A stretch of DNA of 64,000 bases, from contig OY754469.1 in NCBI GenBank assembly GCA_963575645.1, forward strand, positions 23,888,001 to 23,952,000. The letters are read 5' to 3'. Source of the DNA: Xanthostigma xanthostigma (Eukaryota; Arthropoda; Insecta; Raphidioptera; Raphidiidae). Below the pieces are notes generated by a model that did not search any database, was not told the origin of the DNA, and saw only the letters and a program-made list of their open reading frames with translations. The position numbers were made by a program, and so were the translations under genes. Each line of letters begins with the position of its first letter. Positions within the stretch are counted from its first letter, which is position 1. Positions 8,276 to 54,989 of the stretch are shown in pieces.

Positions 8276-8291
8276 TTTCATCTACACATAA
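8276..8291 (+). repeat. 16-bp target-site duplication, left copy
   Basis: TTTCATCTACACATAA is identical to 9950-9965 and flanks the PLE insertion. A base or two may be microhomology with the element. Confidence 0.85.
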
Positions 8292-9949
8292 AAAATATAG
8301 AATAGTTACTTCTTACCACAACAAGTTTATTAGTGGATGTACATTTCGAGAGCTATGCTCTCATCTTCAGCAATACACTAAACTAGGTTCATAAACAAAA
8401 ATCTTTACATTATATAGCAATTACAGGTATAAATTAAAATAATAATGTAGGTACTAAAAATTAACCATAGACTTATGAAAGTCAGGTAACGTCAATCTGG
8501 TATATCCAATATAACCTGAAACTATGTCAACCAAGCGCTGGTCCGTGTCAATGAAAAAACTGTAAAAAACAAAGGAAAACAACAAAACCAAAAAACACAA
8601 AAATTAACGAACTTCGGTTACAAAAGATCGAATAATGCTGAAAAAGGTATAGGGCCATTATCTGAATTTAAAAGTTTCTGTGTGTCACTCTTGGCTATGT
8701 ATATACTTTCAAAACTATCCAACTGCTGTTTATTATGTACTGTTTTTAGCAAACTTAAGTTATTTATACTAATGTCATGGTTAGTTTCTAAAATATGGTT
8801 AGCTACGCTGGATTTGTCCGGTCTACAAAATTTTATATGGGAGAAGTGTTCTTTCCATCTGGTAGCTATTTGACGTCGAGTTTGTCCTATGTATAATTTG
8901 TCACACGTACCGCAATTAATTTTGTATATACCAGACTTTTCTAAAGTGGGTATGCTGTCTTTCGGGTTACCTAGGTGTTTACTAATACTATTTTCATTTT
9001 TAAAGGCTTTAATTAAATTAACGTTTTTGAATATATTATCTAATCCTTTAGTAAGAATGGGATCGTATGTTAGGCCAATATATTTTAATGGGGGTTTATC
9101 TGTAATTAGTGTCGTACTATTTCTAAAATTTAACTTTACTTTTTTCTTTTTAAGAATATTCAAAACCATATCTTTAGAATAACCGTTTAATTCAGCTATA
9201 TTAATTATATTAAGTAATTCTCGATCAAAACGATGCTTGTTAAGAGGAATAGTTAACAGTCGATGTATCATACTTTGGAAGGTCGCTTGTTTGTGTATTA
9301 GGGGGTGATTAGAATGGTTCATAATATATCTGTTATTGTTCGTCGGTTTTCTATAAATATCAAATTCTAATGAGTCTATTTTTTTGTGGATCATGAGGTC
9401 TAAAAAAGGTATGCTATTGTTGGTTTCAATTTCATGAGTGAATTTAATGGATGGATATCGACTGTTGAGATCATCAATGAAGCTATTAATATCGTACTTA
9501 CTAGTATCGAAGATGGCAAAAATATCATCAACGTACCTAAACCAAATGCGGGGGAAATATTTAAGGTCGTTTTTAATTTCTGATTCTAAGTTGCACATGA
9601 ATAAGTTCGCTATAAAGGGGGAAAGACAATTACCCATAGCCGTACCAGAGTGTTGTTTATAAAACTTACCGTTGAATTGAAAGAAGTTATTGTACATGCA
9701 AGTTTCAGTTAATTTTATGTATTCATTAATACTATCAAGGTCAATATTATTTAACAAAAGAAAGTTTTTGAGGTGTTTAAGCGTCACCTCTATAGGGATA
9801 CTTGGGAAGAGAGCACAGACATCAAAAGAAACTAATAGTTCGCTACTTTTTAATTTTATGTCTTTGATCTTGGTTACTAAATCTAAGCTGTTTTTAATTG
9901 AAAACTGATCATGGATTTGCTGCATTTTACTAAATTCCGTAGTTAACCA
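8292..9949 (-). mobile_element. 5'-truncated Penelope-like retroelement
   Basis: This minus-strand insertion carries the second half of a PLE reading frame, a 3' untranslated part with a hammerhead-like motif at 8339-8372, and a perfect 16-bp direct repeat on both sides. Complete PLEs are usually about 3 kb; here the first part of the RT is missing and the coding begins directly at the TSD, as expected for a 5'-truncated retrotransposition event. The intact frame and perfect TSD argue for a fairly recent insertion. Confidence 0.9.
8339..8372 (-). ncRNA. Hammerhead-like motif in PLE 3' region
   Basis: On the minus strand, CTGAAGA (8364-8370) is followed by one extra T, a 6-bp stem GAGAGC/GCTCTC with an ATA loop, and GAAA (8344-8347). 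The order matches a hammerhead core with one added nucleotide. Past GAAA the sequence is TGTACATC, so the usual CGUC is absent; ATGTACAT is itself a palindrome. Stem I is weak (about 2 bp). It is probably a diverged ribozyme of the kind known from PLE terminal repeats; activity is doubtful. Confidence 0.45.
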
Positions 9950-9955
9950 TTTCAT
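8618..9955 (-). CDS. PLE reverse transcriptase (partial) with GIY-YIG endonuclease
   Basis: The 445-residue open frame is uninterrupted. RT motif A is SFDVCALFPSIP (residues 43-54), motif B SGTAMGNCLSPFIANLFM (103-120), and motif C contains the catalytic YVDD (141-144). The PLE-typical IYRKPTNNNRY is at 200-210. The C-terminal GIY-YIG nuclease has GIY at 342-344, YIG at 355-357, following arginines at 360-361 and 366, and a candidate catalytic glutamate in SFESIYI (residue 416). RT copies the RNA and the endonuclease nicks the target. The first codons overlap the target duplication, so the ATG is accidental; the N-terminal fingers and RT motifs before A are missing. It is unlikely to be functional alone. 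Confidence 0.93.
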   Translation of the reverse strand: MKWLTTEFSKMQQIHDQFSIKNSLDLVTKIKDIKLKSSELLVSFDVCALFPSIPIEVTLKHLKNFLLLNNIDLDSINEYIKLTETCMYNNFFQFNGKFYKQHSGTAMGNCLSPFIANLFMCNLESEIKNDLKYFPRIWFRYVDDIFAIFDTSKYDINSFIDDLNSRYPSIKFTHEIETNNSIPFLDLMIHKKIDSLEFDIYRKPTNNNRYIMNHSNHPLIHKQATFQSMIHRLLTIPLNKHRFDRELLNIINIAELNGYSKDMVLNILKKKKVKLNFRNSTTLITDKPPLKYIGLTYDPILTKGLDNIFKNVNLIKAFKNENSISKHLGNPKDSIPTLEKSGIYKINCGTCDKLYIGQTRRQIATRWKEHFSHIKFCRPDKSSVANHILETNHDISINNLSLLKTVHNKQQLDSFESIYIAKSDTQKLLNSDNGPIPFSALFDLL

Positions 9956-9965
9956 CTACACATAA
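9950..9965 (+). repeat. 16-bp target-site duplication, right copy
   Basis: Identical to 8276-8291. It marks the truncated 5' side of the PLE. Confidence 0.85.
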
Positions 9966-10354: not shown

Positions 10355-10400
10355 ACTAACAGTATTTACAAATCTTTGTTTAACGTCTGATTAAAACTCT
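10355..10400 (-). repeat. Roughly 40-bp dispersed module
   Basis: Minus-strand form of TTATTGAAGAGTTCTAATCA followed by the GACGTTAATCAAAGATTTG block. Copies occur at 16312-16350, 38374-38412 and 57409-57447. Two of the four abut the palindromic element. Confidence 0.75.
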
Positions 10401-10403
10401 TCA

Positions 10404-10587
10404 ATAAATAAAATTATCGACCAATTTTTCAAACAATTATATTAACAAAAATATATAATTATAATTCAATACATTAACGTTTTGGTCCGGATTTAAAGTT
10501 TCTTCAGAAACGTTAATGTATTGAATTATTACTATATATTTTTGTTAATATAATTGTCTGAAAAATTGGTCGATAATTTTATTTATC
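10404..10587. mobile_element. Near-perfect palindromic element with hammerhead-like centre
   Basis: The left half (AAATAAAATTATCGACC... CAATACATTAACG) is mirrored by the right half to about 10587. The centre holds, on the minus strand, CTGAAGA (10500-10506) and downstream AAAACGTTAATG, which looks like a decayed CUGAAGA...GAAACGUU arrangement whose stem II partner is lost. A roughly 40-bp module abuts it on the left (about 10355-10400). The same palindrome family, split by another transposon, is at 14980-16318. Confidence 0.75.
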
Positions 10588-12310
10588 CTTTTATTTATTT
10601 AAAAGTATTTACTTATTAAAAATGGTTTTATAAGAAAATATAGGAAATTCATATATTTTTCGCTGCATTACTTGAGCCATGGTAAGGCACACACGACAAT
10701 TTTTAATAAGAAAGACTCAAACATCTTCAAAAAATTTAATTGACACGTCTGAGGTTTCGTGTAAATTTTATAGATTGTAGTGCTCATATTTTAACATACT
10801 ATACGTAATTATATTTTTTGAACTAAGCATTCAAACAGAATTCATTGTAAACATTTTTATCTAATTTATTATTTTTTGTTACAGGTAAGAAACTCGAGCT
10901 AAGAAAATTTTCAACGCAGCAGGCACCTATATATATTTTCATCAAATATAAGGGGTAATAAAAATGAATTCGTAAAAAATAGTCTCGTCATATTACAAGT
11001 TATTTTATATATGTATACTACAGGTATAAAATACCTCGTATCATGAAAATATTCACGTACTATATTATCGGGGGAAAACCGGTCATGCATCCAAAAGAAA
11101 AGTTAACGCATAAGATAAACTTAAAAAATTGGAGAATACGCTTTTTCACTTTGAACTTGGGACCAATCAACTTATGCTGCCCAGAAAATGAAAAAAATAC
11201 ACATCTTTTCACATAAAAAAGGGTTCTCTTTAGATGATAAAAATTATCAGAAAAAAAAATGTGTTGAAATTTTTAAATACAAATGTAGAGAAAAATAATA
11301 ATATACAAAGCAAGTATCCTTACATGTTGATAAATCAGAGTTATACATACTATCCTGCGAAATAAAATTTAACACAAAAAAGAAGAGAGAGAGAGAGAAA
11401 AGAAAAACAAATTGTATCACATAAGCAATTTAAAAAGTGAAGACATCGTATGATATTTTGCTTTCTAGTATTTCAGATTGAAAAATCCATTCTCAGATAA
11501 CATATTTTCGTTCGTCAGTATTTTGAAGTGGAAAATAAAATTTACCAAGTTTATAAATACGTAATCAACGACAATCTTTCTACGTCAAAAGAAGCGCTTC
11601 TCCTCCCCCGGCCTGTATTCCTATAATATATGTTTAAGGTCTAAAGTGTATATTGAAACATCCCCTACATGCAGAATGTGTAAGCCTCGACGCGACGTAT
11701 GCGCAATAATAGTAGTCTGCTTATATTAGAAAATGCTATGCAATCGGTAAGTCCCTGTTTACACAACCGCCAATTGCTGAAGTACTGTTGGAACCACAAT
11801 GATTTTATCACAATGGTTCATGAACTTTTCCTTGCTATGTATCTCCAGCCATACCAGATGTTATTGCCTCTCACCGAAAAAAAAAACTGTTTGATTGCAA
11901 TGTAATCGTGTGGAGAGCAAATACTGATGGATTATTATCAGTATACTGATAATACTTTAGCGATCCTGAAAGCATTTGGATATAAATACTGAGTGTGTAA
12001 AGTGAATTTCAAAATACTGACAGTATCAAATAATGTCAATAATAGTGATCGTGTATAAAGGGAGCTTAGCACGAATTTCAAATTTGTTTTCTTATATCCA
12101 TATTGACGAAAGTGAAATTGCCCATTATTATAATATAGTTATTTTGTAGAATAGCGATATATTTTAATTAAACTTTTCAGTATTGCATTTTTCACATTTT
12201 TTTTAATCGATTCATAAGTTTTATGCATATACCTAAAAAAGAGATGTCATTTGATGAGCACTCAATTGCAAAAATACCTGAATAATATTGTTTTTGTTTA
12301 TGAGTTAGGT
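10588..12310. other. No gene recognised
   Basis: AT-rich. A short (GA)n tract occurs near 11386-11398. No readable protein or repeat boundary. Confidence 0.5.
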
Positions 12311-16067: not shown

Positions 16068-16311
16068 TAATATATTGGCAAAATATATAATTATAATTCA
16101 ATAAATTAACGTTTCGATTCGGGTTTGGTTCTTCTTTAGATTAACAAGCTAAAATATAAAAAATATAAAAATGGATTATAATTAGTTTAATAACAAAAAT
16201 GTGTAAGTTTTTTCTGAATGAAAAAAATGTTTAATGACAATTTTTTTATTGAAAAATATATATAATTATATATTTTGTCAATATATTGTCTGAAAAATTG
16301 GTCGATAATTT

Positions 16312-29701: not shown

Positions 29702-32374
29702 GTGAGAGACTGATGGTCATTGCTGGTTACAGGTGCTGTTCTAAAGTGCGCTACATTAGTACCTTTACGTACAGGCTTTTCGGCTTCGTGCTGTGCTGGT
29801 CTGCGCGATCTTTTAATATTACTAATATGCGTCTGATTTGGAGAATAGCACCCGTAACTGAAACGAACAGATTTTAAGTTAAAAAGAGTGTTTAAAAATT
29901 TAATGACACGCTGTTAAAGGTGGGGGCACTGCTGTGATAGAGTTCGCGCTTCGATATTGAAATGATTGATCACCCGAATTTACTGTATGTAAAGTTTTAT
30001 ATCGCACTAGGTGCTGAAAATGTCAGCTGTCATTTTTTTTATCTCACTTCGTTCTTTTCAGTCTATATAATGTACTTTTAAATTTGTTTTCGACTTGTAT
30101 TTGAGATCGTATTATTATTGTGTTTTATCGATGATTATGTAATTTAAATCTGCTTTTCATAAAAAAAATCTGAGTGCGTTGCATATTTTTCCCAGCTTCA
30201 GTTCTTATATCCATTTCATAATCTTATATATGATTTCAATTTATATTTTCGCTGACAAGATAATTATAGCGCTTTTTATATGCTATCGAAAAAATATAGT
30301 CTTTTAAGTTATTTGTAAATTAAGACGATACGGTACGAATATTTGAGCTTTTTTGTGGTACATCACTCATTTTATGTGCCTTATATGGCTTAGGCTTTTA
30401 TACAGTATGTAAACACGTAAGGTGCACATAGGGAAATTAACATTGGGACATTAGGTGTATTGGTCTGTCATTTGTGGTACAATACTTGGTTACAGATATA
30501 TTATTCTATCTATAATACAAAAAAATAATCGTTCGTTTAGTCTGTACAATAAAACGAAACATTACAAACAATGTGTAGTGTTATACCAATAAAAATCATA
30601 CACTTAATTTAACTACACGGCCATTTAGTTTTATGATACACCGTTTGTAGCGCAAGTGTAGAGCAATGGCGGTTGAATTGCTGTGTATAATACACTAATG
30701 GCTACCGATTTGGTAAAAAATGCACACAAACTGATATTCATTATTTCCATACTCATCCTAATGAGACATCTATATTTTGTCTGCTAGCAACAAGTCTGCC
30801 CTCATACCTATTGCTTCAGCTTTTGTTTAAAAGATTAATTAAAAAAGTATATAATTGGACGATAAGCCCGAAATTCTGGCAGCTTATGTATTTAAAATTC
30901 AATTCTTTTTTCGTAATCACTTTATAATATTTCTTATTGTAAAGATATTAAATACTCAAAAAAATGGCTCACTGCATCTGTTTTGTTTGTATCAAAAAAA
31001 ATAACAAAAGTGTTTGTGTAGACATCTTAGAGGTCGCCCACGGTATGTGCTGCATGGCAGATCTGACCGTCAGGTGTAAAGTAACTAAAAGTGAGAGAGA
31101 GAGAGAAATTGTAGATAATAGACGCTCAACAACTGAGGTGACAGGCGCTATTGTTAGTAACAGCTTTGTGGTGTGGGCCTTATGCTGCATACGAATTGTG
31201 AACAAAATTCAATACATATTTCATTTTATATTACAGCAAAATTTAGGATATTATAACAGTTTAAAAATAATCTTTTGAAAATAAACTTTCAGGTGAGAAT
31301 GCCGAAATGATTTTTGGTTCAATCATTGAAATTTTGAAATTATTAAAAACAAAGCACGTTTCAAATTGTTTTAAATGTAGCTTTGTAATAAATCTTTTTC
31401 TTCATACCTAGATCGAAAATGCACACTTTCGGCACCAATTGTAAAGCGGAAAGTCTAACAACATTTACTCCTTGGTGTGATAGTAAAGCAAAACCAATCA
31501 ATCAACTGTTGTTTAGATGTCGTTTCCCATATCTAACCTATTTTATTTTAGCTAATAGTCGCGATCAGCTGTAATTCTTGTTTTTACGTACTTATAACCT
31601 CAAAGCTTCTTGCTTGGAATTTATTTGTGTTTTTATTTAATTAATTAATTAGTGTATTAAGCGTGCTTACGACCGATGTATGAAGAAAAATAGTACACAC
31701 CACACTGGCCCTTGTGGTGTAATATACTATAAATTTTCAAAAATACTAAATATAAACTGAAGAAGCATTATTCCCATTACAATCCACGCGAACAATAATT
31801 TCATGAAAGTATGCCGTATATAATGTGTGCCATAATATTCGTCTTGTTCTATGTTCTGCTGTCTGCGGTACTTCAAATCGTTTGCTGACCATTAAACTGA
31901 CCCATCGGCCTTATAAATCTAGCTCACTCAACCGCTACAACTGGATATGTACAACTGAACGCACATTTACCTTCTCACCTTGGCTGCTCTCCTGCTCAAG
32001 AAAAGGAAATATCGCCCTTATATTAACTCTAAAGGGCCGCTAGGGCATTGTGATACACATATTCCCTACCTTCACAATTGACGTCTGGAGCACACACGTA
32101 GCTATCTCGGTTTTGTTCTAATACAATAGACCTGACTAACTATACTCTATTCTGATTCATAATATTATTACCTAGACGATTAGAGAATCGTTTAGGAAAT
32201 GAAATGGTACATTAGTGATAAATCAATCAGATTTATAACACTATCGGGTAGAGTTTTTTTGCGTCAACATTGTTTTGTTTTGAATTTGTATGAGCTACAC
32301 GTAATAATTAACAAACAAGTTGAATCAGTCGTATTTTATTTCGTTTTTTTTATTTATTTTTATTTTTTTTGAAG
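29702..32374. other. No certain gene
   Basis: A (GA)n tract is at 31092-31107. 30964-31278 and 31825-32043 are open on the plus strand but unrecognised. 31686-31736 is a short palindrome with the same ends as the MITE at 4799 (AATAGTACACACCAC/GTGGTGTAATATACTA). Confidence 0.4.
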
Positions 32375-32386
32375 ATTAGTGATAAT
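32375..32386 (+). repeat. 12-bp target-site duplication, left copy
   Basis: ATTAGTGATAAT, identical to 33509-33520. It overlaps the first base of the inverted arm. Confidence 0.85.
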
Positions 32387-32447
32387 GTATGTAAATGATA
32401 GCGGGAAAGTGGACAGGTACAAAAAGTCAAACACCTTATTTGGCTTT

Positions 32448-32486
32448 GTATGACGTTTCGCTGGAGAACCCAGCTTCTTCAGATAC
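32448..32486 (-). ncRNA. Hammerhead-ribozyme-like motif, left arm
   Basis: Minus strand, 39 nt. GTAT (stem I), CTGAAGA, an extra A, stem II GCTGG/CCAGC with loop GTTCT, GAAA, CG, TC, then ATAC pairing with GTAT. All core nucleotides of a hammerhead are present in order except for the extra A between the CUGANGA box and stem II. Stem III is only ACGU, self-complementary, so cleavage would need two molecules, as described for dimeric PLE hammerheads. Activity is untested. Confidence 0.55.
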
Positions 32487-32802
32487 TGAAATTATATTTT
32501 GAAAAAATGTTTAGTTTTACAATATGTACAAAAGTTTCCAGGTTATTTACCTTAGCTGAAAGATGTTATTGTTGTAAAAGCTATACATTATATTCAAACG
32601 GTTGACCAAACACATATACAATTAATGTTTTCTTTGTTAATGGAGTAAAAATTGTAATTAATTCTGCAGTAAACAATATAAACATTTTTAATCTTTATCT
32701 CCAAGCAGAACACATGGTTTTGAAAAATTTTTTTTATGATAACAGTTGTCATGCAACCAACATAACAGAGTTGAGTTGGGGCGCGAATATTGACATTTTG
32801 AA

Positions 32803-33000
32803 TTAATGTGACGTTATTATTTGATTATATACCATACTTAAATTTTTGGTATCTGTCCTCATGTTGATTGTGTTGTTCGACTTAATGAAGATCACCTCAC
32901 TTACATTTCGTTTTCTCCAGTTCGGTTCTTCATCTAAAATAGTGACTTGTTCAAAATTAAATATATGTGCAGTAGTATATGATGATGTGCCAATGCTCAT
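32803..33000 (-). pseudogene. PLE protein C-terminus (fragment, minus strand)
   Basis: About 66 codons end at a TAA. The reading HIFNFEQVTILDEEPNWRKR, then SEVIFIKSNNTINMRTDT and NLSMVYN resembles the tail that follows the GIY-YIG nuclease in PLEs (pattern I-DxExNWxKRxxxEx-x-I, then NxxxDTxxLxxxY). RT and nuclease cores are missing, so this is a 5'-truncated copy. The apparent ATG at 33006 lies across the inversion junction and is not a natural start. Confidence 0.8.
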
Positions 33001-33063
33001 CAACATGAGGACAGATACCCAAAATTTAAGTATGGTATATAATCAAATAATAACGTCACATTA
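33001..33063 (+). pseudogene. PLE protein C-terminus (second, inverted copy)
   Basis: Plus-strand codons NMRTDTQNLSMVYNQIITSH and a stop repeat the end of the minus-strand fragment with one substitution (K to Q). Truncated at the inversion junction. Confidence 0.75.
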
Positions 33064-33380
33064 ATTCAAAATGTCAATATTCGCGCCCCAACTCAACTCT
33101 GTTAAGTTGGTTGCATGACAACTGTTATCATATAAAAATTTTTTTCAAAACCATGTGTTCTGCTTGGAGATAAAAGACAAAAAAAATTTTATATTGTTTA
33201 CTGCAGAATTAATTACAATTTTTACTCCATTAACAAAGAAAACATTTGTATATGTGTTTGGTCAACCGTTTGAATATAATGTATAGCTTTTACAACAATA
33301 ACATCTTTCAGCTAAGGTAAATAACCTAGAAACTTTTGTACATATTGTAAAACTAAACATTTTTTCAAAATATAATTTCA

Positions 33381-33419
33381 GTATCTGAAGAAGCTGGGAT
33401 CTCCAGCGAAACGTCATAC
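33381..33419 (+). ncRNA. Hammerhead-ribozyme-like motif, right arm
   Basis: Same 39-nt motif on the plus strand: GTAT 33381-33384, CTGAAGA 33385-33391, extra A 33392, stem II 33393-33397 with 33403-33407 (loop GATCT), GAAA 33408-33411, CG, TC with predicted cleavage after C33415, and ATAC 33416-33419. One loop base differs from the left-arm copy (GTTCT to GATCT); the paired bases are unchanged. Confidence 0.55.
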
Positions 33420-33508
33420 AAAGCCAAATAAGGTGTTTGATTTTTTGTACCTGTCCACTTTCCCGCTATCATTTACATACATCAATATAATGGACGTGAA
33501 ACCAGAAA

Positions 33509-33520
33509 ATTAGTGATAAT
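33509..33520 (+). repeat. 12-bp target-site duplication, right copy
   Basis: Identical to 32375-32386. Confidence 0.85.
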
Positions 33521-36500
33521 ATTTCATTATCCAAATTAATCGTTGTACTGTATTATGCGGGTATGAATATTTACTATGTAGGTACAAAATATTAGGAGGC
33601 GGCAATCAACTAGAAATAGGAATTCCGTGTTAAGAACGACTTTTAACGATGCTACAGAACATTTGTGCGCCGGCTGCGAGAATAAGTAAATCTCCATTTG
33701 CATTTATTTTGAACTATGTTATTATCTAAACATAATTTATAAACAATTATAGGACACTCTTCTACTAGAGTAAAATCTGTATCGAGAGAAAGAATTCATG
33801 TGTCCACTGTGTTGATGCGTATATTTGTGTTAATGTGGCCTATATTTTGTAAGAGGACAAATGAAAAATATACGAGAAAACGGGATAAACGCGTATTCCA
33901 TACACACACGAGCGGTCGCAAATATGATTTGGATTATTTTTAAAGCTTGCTGATATGCATTCACCTCGATGAAATACATCAATATTATAACCGCATTGCC
34001 AACAGCTCTAATTATAATAAAAGGGAATTAAATCAGCACTTAAACAGCCCTTAATTCTCATTACATTAATCTTGTTATCCGGTTATTTGGCAGTGCTGAC
34101 TTTAGTGACGTTATTTTGTTGACTCCAGATTTTCTTACGTCTGTAACAATTTAATAATAAAACAATTTGAGTCCAGTTGGATAGCTCGATGTGCCCTGAC
34201 TTTTTTTAAGTCATAGAAAGCACTAAATTTTGACATTTCAAAAAAAAAAAAACTGCGGATTATTCACAATTTTCCTTAAAATTACGTAAAAACTTTTCGT
34301 CTTTCACTGTCATTTTTTGAATCTAACCAATCAGAAATCACCTATATACGTCATAGTAACTGGTGTATAATTGCTGTATTACTATCTCACTTTGTATTTT
34401 TTAAAGAACTGCCCTCAAACGCCGTCCCCTTTTCACTGCGCAAGAAAAACGCCATCGCATCGACACGACCCCGTAATTGTTTTTTATAGAACTCCCCCAG
34501 GCGCAAAAAAAAAACGCCGTCGCATCGACATGACCCCGTAATTGTTTTTTAAAGAGCTCTCCCCAAACGTCTTCTCCTTTTCATGCGCAAAATAATTTAT
34601 AAAAATCAATTTTCCGCACTTAAAACGGCTAATAACACTGTTGTTATATTATGTTATATAAAATAATAATTGTGTATTTCCAATGGATATTTTGCACATC
34701 GAGTTATCGTACTCAAACAATTTTTAAAATTGTATAAACATATTCATAACATGAAAATCTGACAGGTATATTATATTTTTGTACTAATACGTGCCTTAAT
34801 TTTAGAAACTTAGAAATAAATAATTTTGACCACGCTTGTGTGAGTGCAACCTGTTTCTGACAAATGAATCTAGTATAGCAGTAGAAAGATCTTACTACTT
34901 TTTGAATAGATATATCGGCATATCCCAGTTGAGTTACTTAGATAGCTGGATAGGTAAATGGTTTGGAACTGAATACTCTGCTCCAACTCAAATGTCCACA
35001 TTAGTTTGAACTGTGCTGATTTTAGTCTGGCCATTAGCCGCATATGTAAAAGTGACACCGCCGCGACTCTGCGTACTTCGCTCGGCTGATATTCTAACTT
35101 TTAACTCCCAAACAAAAGTAATACACATTAATGTGACTTAAATTCTTGAATATATGTTTATTTTTATAGCCATCCTTTTTTCGAAAGTCAATTACCATGA
35201 CCGGAATTTATTTACTCGATTGATTGTCAATAAGAATATTATTAGTAGTAATAATTATTTATGTAATTCGTAGAAAGAACGCCTGTATTTTTATTTTAAA
35301 AAAACGTAAATGAAGGCGTAACGATTTTCTATTGTCATAAAGAACAATTGAATTGTGTTATCAATTGTTTTGGAAGCATGATAAATGGTACATGCAAATT
35401 TTAAGCTGTTATTGACTTTTGGATGATTTTGTACATATTGTTTTGAATTTGATATGTTATGTTATGAATATTCAGGTTGTGTGATTTTAATTCTTTTAAT
35501 AAAAATCGTTTTGCACTTGCTTTTGTATTAAATTTTTTCTATATTTATAACGTGTATTTGTTTAAATTATATTAATGAAATGCACTCTTTGCTGGTACAT
35601 TTAAATTTCAATCGAAATTTTTACTCTTCTAAAAAATTATAAAATTAATTAAATACTTACAGAATTAAAAATAAGAAAATGTGTACTTCATATAGTGTGT
35701 TTGAGATCTGAAAAAGTTTAAGTTTTTTGATTTTTATATTATTTTCTTTTTAATGCCGCAGCTTTTTTGCATTATGTTACATTACAGTGTGGCTTCCCCG
35801 TGCGCCCCTATCGTGCGTTCATCATTTAGAGGTTATTTTATTATTTTTAATCAAAATATACACTAGAATTGCCCACGCAGTAAGTTTTGGTTTCGAAATT
35901 CGGTTTGTAAAAACTAGTTTCGGTCGGACACTACTCAAAACACGGTTGTTGGAATCTATAAAACTACAATTTTCTCCCTGTTAATGCGGTTAAGAAGTGA
36001 CTGAATTTATATATTTTTTTTCCAATAGTAATCAGTAAAATAAAATAATTCTCAAACAATACAATTTATATTCGTAATTTTATTTGAAATCAAACGGGTA
36101 TTTTTATTTTATTTTGTCGTTAACACGTATATAATTTTAAATTCCTGGTAGAAAAGCAGAAGTCGTCAAATATTTAATTCTTCACAATTGATGTAAAATT
36201 CCATAAATGCCTATGCGGCGTACATGTACAGTAGGGATCCTATGTGATAGAAACAAATGATTTTAGTAGAAACTTCATTGATTAAACATTTTTTTTTGAT
36301 AACATTTTAATGTGCGGTCTTCTTCATATAACTACAAAAACAAAGTTTCAAACTGATTGATTCACGTAGCTTTGCGGATAGGCAACAGTACGTGACTATG
36401 TGCCAGTGTTCCCCATCACAAAATTTGGAATAGTACTTAATCTAAAATTGTTTTTAATGCTCCAGTCAATAAATAATGAATACAAATACGCTTAGCCATC

Positions 36501-43304: not shown

Positions 43305-43317
43305 TACACACTATTTA
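43305..43317 (+). repeat. 13-bp target-site duplication, left copy
   Basis: TACACACTATTTA, identical to 43625-43637. Confidence 0.85.
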
Positions 43318-43369
43318 GAGAAAAGAAACGAAACGGCTGATTTATGAGCCAATTTTGTTTATTGTAGGA

Positions 43370-43411
43370 AGACTACGTTTCGACACCTGTTTTGGTGTCT
43401 TCCTCAGGTCT
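43370..43411 (-). ncRNA. Hammerhead-like motif, left arm
   Basis: Minus strand: AGAC (stem I), CTGAGGA, an extra A, stem II GACACC/GGTGTC with loop AAAACA, GAAA, CG, TA, then GTCT, which pairs with AGAC. Predicted cleavage would follow a GUA triplet. The extra nucleotide after CUGARGA is in the same place as in the 32-33 kb and 8.3 kb motifs. Confidence 0.5.
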
Positions 43412-43500
43412 ATAAGAAAATAAATAATACATATAATAGTTAAAACTTAATTATACATTAGTAATAAAACATAATCAAATATACCTTTAATTAATTGACA

Positions 43501-43537
43501 TTGAGGAAGACACCAAAACAGGTGTCGAAACGTAGTC
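43501..43537 (+). ncRNA. Hammerhead-like motif, right arm, core mutated
   Basis: Same motif on the plus strand, but the core starts TTGAGGA instead of CTGAGGA and the upstream stem-I partner is lost. GAAA is at 43527-43530. Probably inactive. Confidence 0.4.
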
Positions 43538-43624
43538 TTCCTACAATAAACAAATTTGACTCATAAATCAACCGTTTCGTTTCTTTTCTATAATATACAA
43601 TTGAGTGATCATGATTATTAAAAA

Positions 43625-43637
43625 TACACACTATTTA
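43625..43637 (+). repeat. 13-bp target-site duplication, right copy
   Basis: Identical to 43305-43317. Confidence 0.85.
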
Positions 43638-54175: not shown

Positions 54176-54221
54176 TGAAGAACCAAGCACTGTAATGTGA
54201 ATTGTGATGCTTGGTTCTTCA
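54176..54221. repeat. Perfect 14-bp stem hairpin
   Basis: TGAAGAACCAAGCA (54176-54189) and TGCTTGGTTCTTCA (54208-54221) with an 18-nt loop. Pairing does not extend outward, so it is too short for a typical miRNA precursor. Confidence 0.85.
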
Positions 54222-54989
54222 GAGTTTTTATGAAAAAAAAATTGGCTACGTGTAAAAGATTACGTATCTACTTTATAATTTTTTTTAAAGCTATACAGGT
54301 ACTTCCAGATTTCTTTTCAATTTTTGCGCAACCGTGTTCTAGGCACGTATGCTTATCTGGGTATACAAGATACATGAAAACCCGCAAAAAAATTAAATTA
54401 GGTTCCCGCTAAAATTTTTAATAGATATTCAACATTATAAAAGCCACGACGTCATCCTAAATAGTCTCCAAATAGAAACATAATAACATATAATTAGACT
54501 TTATTGAATAATATATTAAAATGTCTTAATGTTTCAAATTATGTGCTAATTTAGTTAATTAATTCTGAATATATGCTAGCATAATTATTTAGTATTGATA
54601 TATCATAATAAACCATTACATTAAATGAACTCTAATTTATTAAAACATCTAATTACGAACAATTTGTTCTATATTCGTGCTCTTTTCTCATTAAGGATTA
54701 GTGCCTTAATTACGCATACGTCAAATGTTAAACAAAACAAATATACAGAAATTGAACAAACTCTAAAACCCTGTCTCAAACTATAAACTGCACTAATTAA
54801 AATTTTGCGGATTCTGATAGTTTAAGCTCGGTAAATTAGATTTCAAACACATTCGTCATAATAGTTATTTTAATTTTGTGCAGTCGGTTTTGACTCAAAT
54901 AAGAAGTATTCAATACTCATGTTTGCATACCAATAATTGATAGTCTTATAAAAAGCCACTTACTGTTCTTGAGGGATAACATTATAGTC
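54222..54989. other. No gene recognised
   Basis: AT-rich, nothing identified. Confidence 0.45.

Follow-up and report, generated by a model that had tools for sequence, protein, structure and literature searches.

A tailed end paired with a tailless one in head-to-head Penelope-like element insertions carrying hammerhead-like motifs in Xanthostigma xanthostigma

Sampled head-to-head pairs of Penelope-like elements (PLEs) in the genome of Xanthostigma xanthostigma are nearly always asymmetric: one arm ends about 31 nt further out than its partner (a 'tail'), and nearly all classifiable pairs have one tailed and one tailless end. E1, a 1.12-kb inverted repeat (32387-33508) with a hammerhead-like core in each arm, is one such pair. 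It lies in the window, the whole stretch of 64,000 nucleotides analysed here (assembly GCA_963575645.1, contig OY754469.1, positions 23,888,001 to 23,952,000), which is numbered from its first base. E1 probably consists of two 3'-end PLE fragments that abut head to head, so that their 3' ends face outward, within a 12-bp target-site duplication (TSD), and arose, on the same joint reading, by two-ended target-primed reverse transcription from two reverse transcriptase (RT) start sites, one for each DNA end. As a ribozyme the motif is nothing unusual in a PLE, minimal dimer-type PLE hammerheads having already been described; the one-tail insertion rule is the aspect that looks new.

Structure and identity of the E1 insertion

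The arms of E1 form a near-perfect inverted repeat (32385-32868 against 32999-33482) between exact TSDs (Table 1). The left arm encodes HIFNFEQVTILDEEPNWRKRNVSEVIFIKSNNTINMRTDTKNLSMVYNQIITSH-stop on the minus strand, and the right arm starts inside the same ORF end, with its stop codon at 33062-33064 (by eye). Coding content is limited to this ORF C-terminus, full RT and GIY-YIG domains being encoded in the window by a different PLE (RVT_1, 4.5e-11; GIY-YIG, 1.2e-5), which is flanked by a 16-bp TSD (by eye). Four copies of the E1 family (L088, L090, L092 and L101) match the RT/GIY-YIG protein of the window at 25-28% identity (E 1e-6 to 2e-18), and in each the E1 peptide end overlaps the matching stretch on the same strand; the peptide is therefore a PLE C-terminus. 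An earlier reading of this DNA, made from the sequence only, had taken E1 for an inverted PLE insertion, and the ORF end in the arm, the TSD and the tail bear this out. We read the 26-nt tail as marking a second, more distal RT start site. Because the hammerhead-like motif sits near the PLE 3' end, each arm has its copy near its outer end, the predicted cleavage positions being 67 nt inside one boundary of the insertion and 93 nt inside the other.

Table 1. Coordinates of E1, its parts and other PLE-type elements in the window
Feature	Position	Strand	Remarks
E1 left TSD	32375..32386	+	ATTAGTGATAAT; exact 12-bp copy at 33509-33520
E1 left PLE arm	32387..32998	sense on -	3' end without tail, at 32387; 5'-truncated at about 32998
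Hammerhead-like motif, left arm	32448..32486	-	stem I to stem I; cleavage predicted 3' of base 32452
C-terminal end of PLE ORF and stop codon	32803..32998	-	E1 left arm
E1 right PLE arm	32999..33508	sense on +	5'-truncated within ORF end
Hammerhead-like motif, right arm	33381..33419	+	GUAU / CUGAAGA + A / GCUGG..CCAGC / GAAA, ACGU / C33415 / AUAC
E1 tail	33483..33508	+	26 nt, right arm only
E1 right TSD	33509..33520	+	ATTAGTGATAAT; exact 12-bp copy of the left one
Second inverted PLE-type pair	43305..43637	.	13-bp TSD TACACACTATTTA; arms 43315-43406/43502-43593
Third, degenerate inverted pair	10361..10612	.	arms 10404-10482/10508-10586; model match E 0.93
5'-truncated PLE	8276..9965	-	RT + GIY-YIG ORF 8618-9955; own hammerhead-like core at 8370

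The E1 family has at least 50 matches in the 623-Mb genome (40 of 228 candidates were scored) and shows the PLE hallmarks of TSDs, variable 5' truncation and a tandem or inverted pseudo-LTR (pLTR) layout, while a short tail at one end is seen in this family, in the commonest family described below and in the TSD-based sample. Four matches lie 2.93-2.96 kb apart on one strand in an array (C2:63654645-63664012) that also includes one inverted copy. Several copies are identical across 477 nt, which indicates recent movement. A search for PLE relatives in viral contigs returned none, and a microRNA reading (MIR4371, MIR2630, MIR2606) was rejected, the matches being below gathering scores and of a kind expected of any long inverted repeat.

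The second inverted pair of the window has a tail of about 31 nt on its high side only, with an intact core at 43368-43413 (-) and a partial one at 43498-43540 (+). The third has a weak TSD, with a score of 9 that equals the best of 60 null trials; it is a degenerate palindrome with a loop like a hammerhead fragment, and is perhaps an inverted PLE pair with its junction inside the motif. Elsewhere in the window, positions 1-762 form a tandem array with a period of 120 bp (6.3 copies), and one frame is open for 165 aa at 282-779.

The hammerhead-like motif

The two motifs of E1, CTGAAGAAGCTGGGATCTCCAGCGAAACGTC at 33385-33415 (+) and CTGAAGAAGCTGGGTTCTCCAGCGAAACGTC at 32452-32482 (-), follow the minimal PLE hammerhead pattern (CUGANGA, stem II, GAAA, ACGU, H17 and stem I) with one base added after A9. 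The sequence-only reading correctly described the 4-bp stem I (GTAT/ATAC), the 5-bp stem II, the ACGU and C17, as well as a stem III consisting only of ACGU, which resembles that of the known minimal PLE hammerhead. It joined CUGAAGA directly to stem II, skipping an extra A that stands between them in both motifs. Its description of the cores as complete is not supported: they carry this additional nucleotide, the monomer lacks a stem III, and Rfam gives no match. The copies differ solely in loop II, as had been noted, and the change is private to the left arm: among 30 further arms in which this site is occupied, 29 have the right-arm base and one has G. Being near-identical copies within one inverted repeat, the E1 motifs count as one independent occurrence.

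The pattern CTGANGA-N4..30-GAAACGTC has just two matches in the window, both in E1 arms (shuffle mean 0.01), and 6,419 in the genome (3145 + 3274), against 99 for the reversed pattern. Scanning for CTGANGA, a stem II and GAAA gave four cores in the window, each with six pairs (G.U allowed) and one extra nucleotide, two of them being the E1 arms; simulated windows had a mean of 0.03 cores with at least six pairs and a maximum of 1 in 200. Among the first 100 motifs of contig C1, a stem II of at least three pairs was present with a one-base offset in 55 and without an offset in one, and was not clear in 44. We also scored Watson-Crick pairing at five stem II positions in 63 distinct stem-loop II strings of at least 13 letters, four of them added from the window, with no pre-filter for pairing. 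With a one-base offset the paired fraction was 0.762 (shuffled mean 0.539; maximum 0.625 of 1000), compared with 0.292 without an offset (mean 0.263, maximum 0.317) and 0.232 with a two-base offset (mean 0.209, maximum 0.251). Since pairing at the one-base offset exceeds that of the shuffles, the extra base is part of the motif and not damage.

A search with the Rfam hammerhead models, suggested as a check in the sequence-only reading, gave no support: nothing in the window or in seven related loci reached the gathering score, and none of the 14 matches with E up to 10 in 32300-33600 belongs to a hammerhead family. Our own explanation is that the Rfam models need stem III. Conserved pairing across genomic copies, whose absence that reading had listed as a refutation, was found, with stems I and II covarying. 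A covariance model was built from 11 motifs of other loci in the same genome, taken from 19 that have a fully paired stem II; stem II was therefore pre-filtered for pairing in the covariation set, and stem I, which was not used for selection, showed two-sided changes in 3/3 pairs with 72.7% of cells paired. This model matched the E1 copies with E-values of 4.6e-7 (33379-33421) and 5.2e-5 (32446-32488), the E-values of this tool being rough. Its best match in the window was at 43368-43413 (6.1e-9), followed by weaker ones at 16102-16144 (0.001), 8334-8376 (0.0051) and 43498-43540 (0.0053) and the weakest at 54206-54228 (0.16) and 10470-10513 (0.93). The match at 16102-16144 is degenerate and has a CTAAAGA core. 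Support for the motif hence comes from covarying stems and from the excess over the reversed pattern, not from Rfam. Within the E1 family, copies keep the stem I helix via G.U (GUAU/GUAC), the cleavage position is U in one subfamily, and the core is retained in nearly all copies (CTAAAGA in L095).

A dimer had been proposed as necessary for cleavage. The E1 locus cannot provide one, because its copies are inverted and a single transcript would contain one sense and one antisense copy in a long hairpin. In ViennaRNA the optimal fold of the E1 monomer (-8.9) is not the hammerhead fold (-8.6), and RNA dimers were mostly extended duplexes, a double hammerhead being beyond what the tool can model. 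Both E1 arms extend across the cleavage site. Among 110 arms of 55 pairs of the commonest family, each locus having been sampled because it holds one motif or more, 69 cross the whole motif, one has its start no more than 2 nt from the cleavage site and 40 start elsewhere in or after the motif; the signature of a cleaved template at the hammerhead site was not found in these arms. In vivo cleavage is not indicated by these sequences, and the E1 copy is most likely a passenger. At other loci, tandem transcripts may allow the PLE hammerhead to cleave as a dimer. The predominance of arms that cross the motif agrees with unprocessed RNA being the main template in vitro (PMC11167929).

One tailed and one tailless end

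Ends of the E1 family were placed on a query whose last position is 510. Among the 50 matches listed, 28 end at query positions 505-510, 16 at 478-485 and 4 at 488-498, with two more being inner pieces. We compiled 15 divergent pairs, namely E1, 13 fetched loci that had been chosen as divergent-looking and the array pair L101/L102, and excluded a convergent pair (L103) and a locus with a 17-nt tail-only partner (L111). By alignment, 14/15 have one end of each kind. The remaining pair (L099) ends at 510 and 498 by alignment, or at about 484 if its 9-bp direct repeat is a TSD, giving a total of 15/15 in which one case rests on that repeat. Direct repeats flank all 15 pairs; nine are of 12-13 bp, while those of L095, L096 and L099 are only 8-10 bp and stand without a null comparison.

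An unselected sample was provided by the first 100 pattern matches of contig C1. Divergent inverted repeats contain 53 of these, and 8 others were seen in convergent arms alone. Scoring of repeat ends and TSDs gave 59 divergent (three from the window) and 6 convergent repeats. A TSD score of at least 10 was reached by 30 of the 59 divergent repeats and missed by 29 (maximum of 9 in 60 random trials). These 30 comprise 27 one-tail repeats, no symmetric ones and three others (L013, L018, L047), 'one tail' being defined as one side at -6 to 5 nt and the other at 20 to 60 nt; in the 27, one side was near 0 and the other at 22-52 nt, with a median tail of 31 nt. The commonest family, aligned to a query from L030, yielded 55 divergent pairs: 46 one-tail (L030 included), one two-tail (L058), none tailless and 8 ambiguous, or 46/47 of those classifiable. 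Its 34 unpaired ends are 16 tailed, 15 tailless and 3 ambiguous. The alignment and repeat-end/TSD methods share loci. Against equal odds, 46/47 has p = 3e-13 and 15/15 has p = 6e-5, with related insertions of one genome taken as independent.

In the 46 one-tail pairs of the commonest family, the longer arm was the tailless one in 21, the tailed one in 16 and undecided in 9, as judged by arm start within the 163-nt query; the longer arm depends little on tail state. A search for a partner arm in seven flanks of solo copies detected none in 6/7. Among the apparently solo E1-family copies listed, leaving out L111, 9/12 end at the tailed position, 1/12 at query position 479 and 2/12 at 490-493, partners having been checked in some. 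L111 (C4:36485940-36486360) combines a tailless arm with a partner of 17 nt of tail end and is a minimal double-ended insertion.

Proposed insertion mechanism and alternatives

We infer that both DNA ends prime reverse transcription and that this priming is coupled to the use of two start sites. The PLE protein would make a staggered cut in target DNA, and the 3' end of each DNA strand would prime internal reverse transcription of PLE RNA, with one strand end using the inner RT start site and the other the outer, about 31 nt apart. Each cDNA would then be 5'-truncated independently and the two cDNAs joined. With each start site used once, the product would be a head-to-head pair that has a TSD and a single tail. 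A near-even split of the longer arm (21 versus 16) is as expected of separate cDNAs. The purified Anolis PLE protein cleaves and extends both strands in vitro and starts RT internally at two adjacent sites, with an interval that matches the genomic tail (PMC11167929). In that system the start sites of top and bottom strands were alike, so the one-each coupling is not predicted by that work; the absence of a strand difference would be in keeping with a complex able to bind its target either way round. Counterpoints to the two-start-site model are the two-tailed pair L058, the 8/55 ambiguous pairs, the 29/59 repeats that had no TSD at a score of 10, the short direct repeats of L095, L096 and L099, the solo copies whose flanks gave no partner (6/7), the overlap in loci between the two scoring methods and the examination of one genome.

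The head-to-head layout has been explained in rotifer Penelope elements by self-priming (PMC3846280), whereby a cDNA or antisense template folds back (snap-back) and is copied into a head-to-head repeat, the tail being an optional end variant. The layout and junction palindromes reported there fit this model, as do the identical or nearly identical arms of young pairs. By our derivation, however, a copied arm should match the end of its template, whereas 46/47 and 14-15/15 pairs differ by a fixed step; were self-priming to have a fixed stop, the template arm should, again by our derivation, always be the longer, and the longer arm was tailed in 16 pairs and tailless in 21. The one-tail pattern speaks against the published self-priming model, which we consider an unlikely source of E1. 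Still less likely, in our judgement, is that hammerheads active in vivo shape the element, with tandem or dimeric transcripts cut at C33415 and the inverted pair formed from processed RNAs. Activity would account for covariation of stems I and II between families (stem II also in the unfiltered test) and for retention of the core in nearly all E1-family copies, and cleavage of PLE hammerheads as dimers is cited in reviews. Yet only 1/110 arms begins 2 nt or less from the cleavage site, 64/100 sampled motifs have just one contiguous stem I pair and 44/100 no clear stem II, while Anolis hammerhead mutants insert normally in vitro and no Anolis RNA ends map to the hammerhead site (PMC11167929).

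A long inverted repeat with a TSD could also be a fold-back element of DNA-transposon type, or a MITE whose terminal inverted repeats are long, in either case not related to PLEs. This is hardly credible given the copies in tandem array, variable 5' truncation and one-sided tail, and it was ruled out by the PLE ORF end in the arm. A 'convoy' model was dropped as well, in which two RTs travel on one RNA and the inner starter leads and gives the longer arm. The E1 family gave a hint of it (tailless arm longer in 11/15, tailed in 4, by eye, with three differences below 10 nt), and the 21 versus 16 of the commonest family led to its rejection. Partner arms are not consistently nearest neighbours, and many young copies are identical and so uninformative on a one-RNA origin.

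That each double-ended PLE insertion uses both internal RT start sites once, one per DNA strand, seems to us evenly balanced between true and false. If true, it would point to an asymmetric dimer as the integration complex, its two RT active sites being set on two fixed RNA positions, and the 'optional' Penelope tail would become the regular signature of one of two ends. For the question of how PLEs integrate, near-strict pairing of start sites provides a quantitative footprint that separates two-ended priming from self-priming; any PLE-rich genome, as well as the published in vitro system, offers a means of checking it.

Comparison with known systems

Minimal type I PLE hammerheads were reportedly described by Cervera and de la Pena in 2014 and by Lunse et al. 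in 2017, with cleavage expected as a dimer. The E1 motif is like them in the absence of helix III and of loop-loop contacts and differs from them in the extra nucleotide after A9. An extra nucleotide in the catalytic core is said to have been reported by De la Pena and Flores in 2001 for the hammerhead of Chrysanthemum chlorotic mottle viroid, a similar feature in a viroid ribozyme of an unrelated element. Reviews describe minimal PLE hammerheads that have no helix III and may cleave as dimers (PMC6155905, PMC6466107, PMC7761336). Metazoan retrozymes are tandem units of 150-300 bp bounded by hammerheads (PMC7761336), an organisation not found in E1, which is an inverted pair. A retrozyme-like organisation is present elsewhere in the same genome, at 1367-2023 of locus L084 (near C1:10656695-10657161), where three tandem 216-bp units have three hammerhead-like cores CTGAAGATGATACAAAACGTATCGAAACGTC about 216-220 nt apart.

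Among PLEs, Pen2a of Adineta vaga has pseudo-LTRs, an inverted pLTR and a 31-bp tail (PMC3846280). The tail is optional there and the layout is ascribed to self-priming, whereas one tail per pair is near-strict here; we found no printed description of the one-tail rule in the open-licence literature, PMC3846280 already noting a tail on one inverted pLTR, as optional. The Poseidon element PAc of Anolis carolinensis (PMC11167929) resembles the present elements in its two adjacent internal RT start sites, in the extension of both strands and in a hammerhead near the pLTR-ORF junction. In PAc, C3 and G8 precede the start codon and the ORF starts at stem II (PMC11167929), a text that is compatible with the same extra-base spacing, the spacing not being displayed there. 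The PAc work is in vitro only and shows no strand difference in start site, and the main text of PMC11167929 uses neither 'head-to-head' nor 'palindrome', with 'inverted' appearing only in 'inverted dT'.
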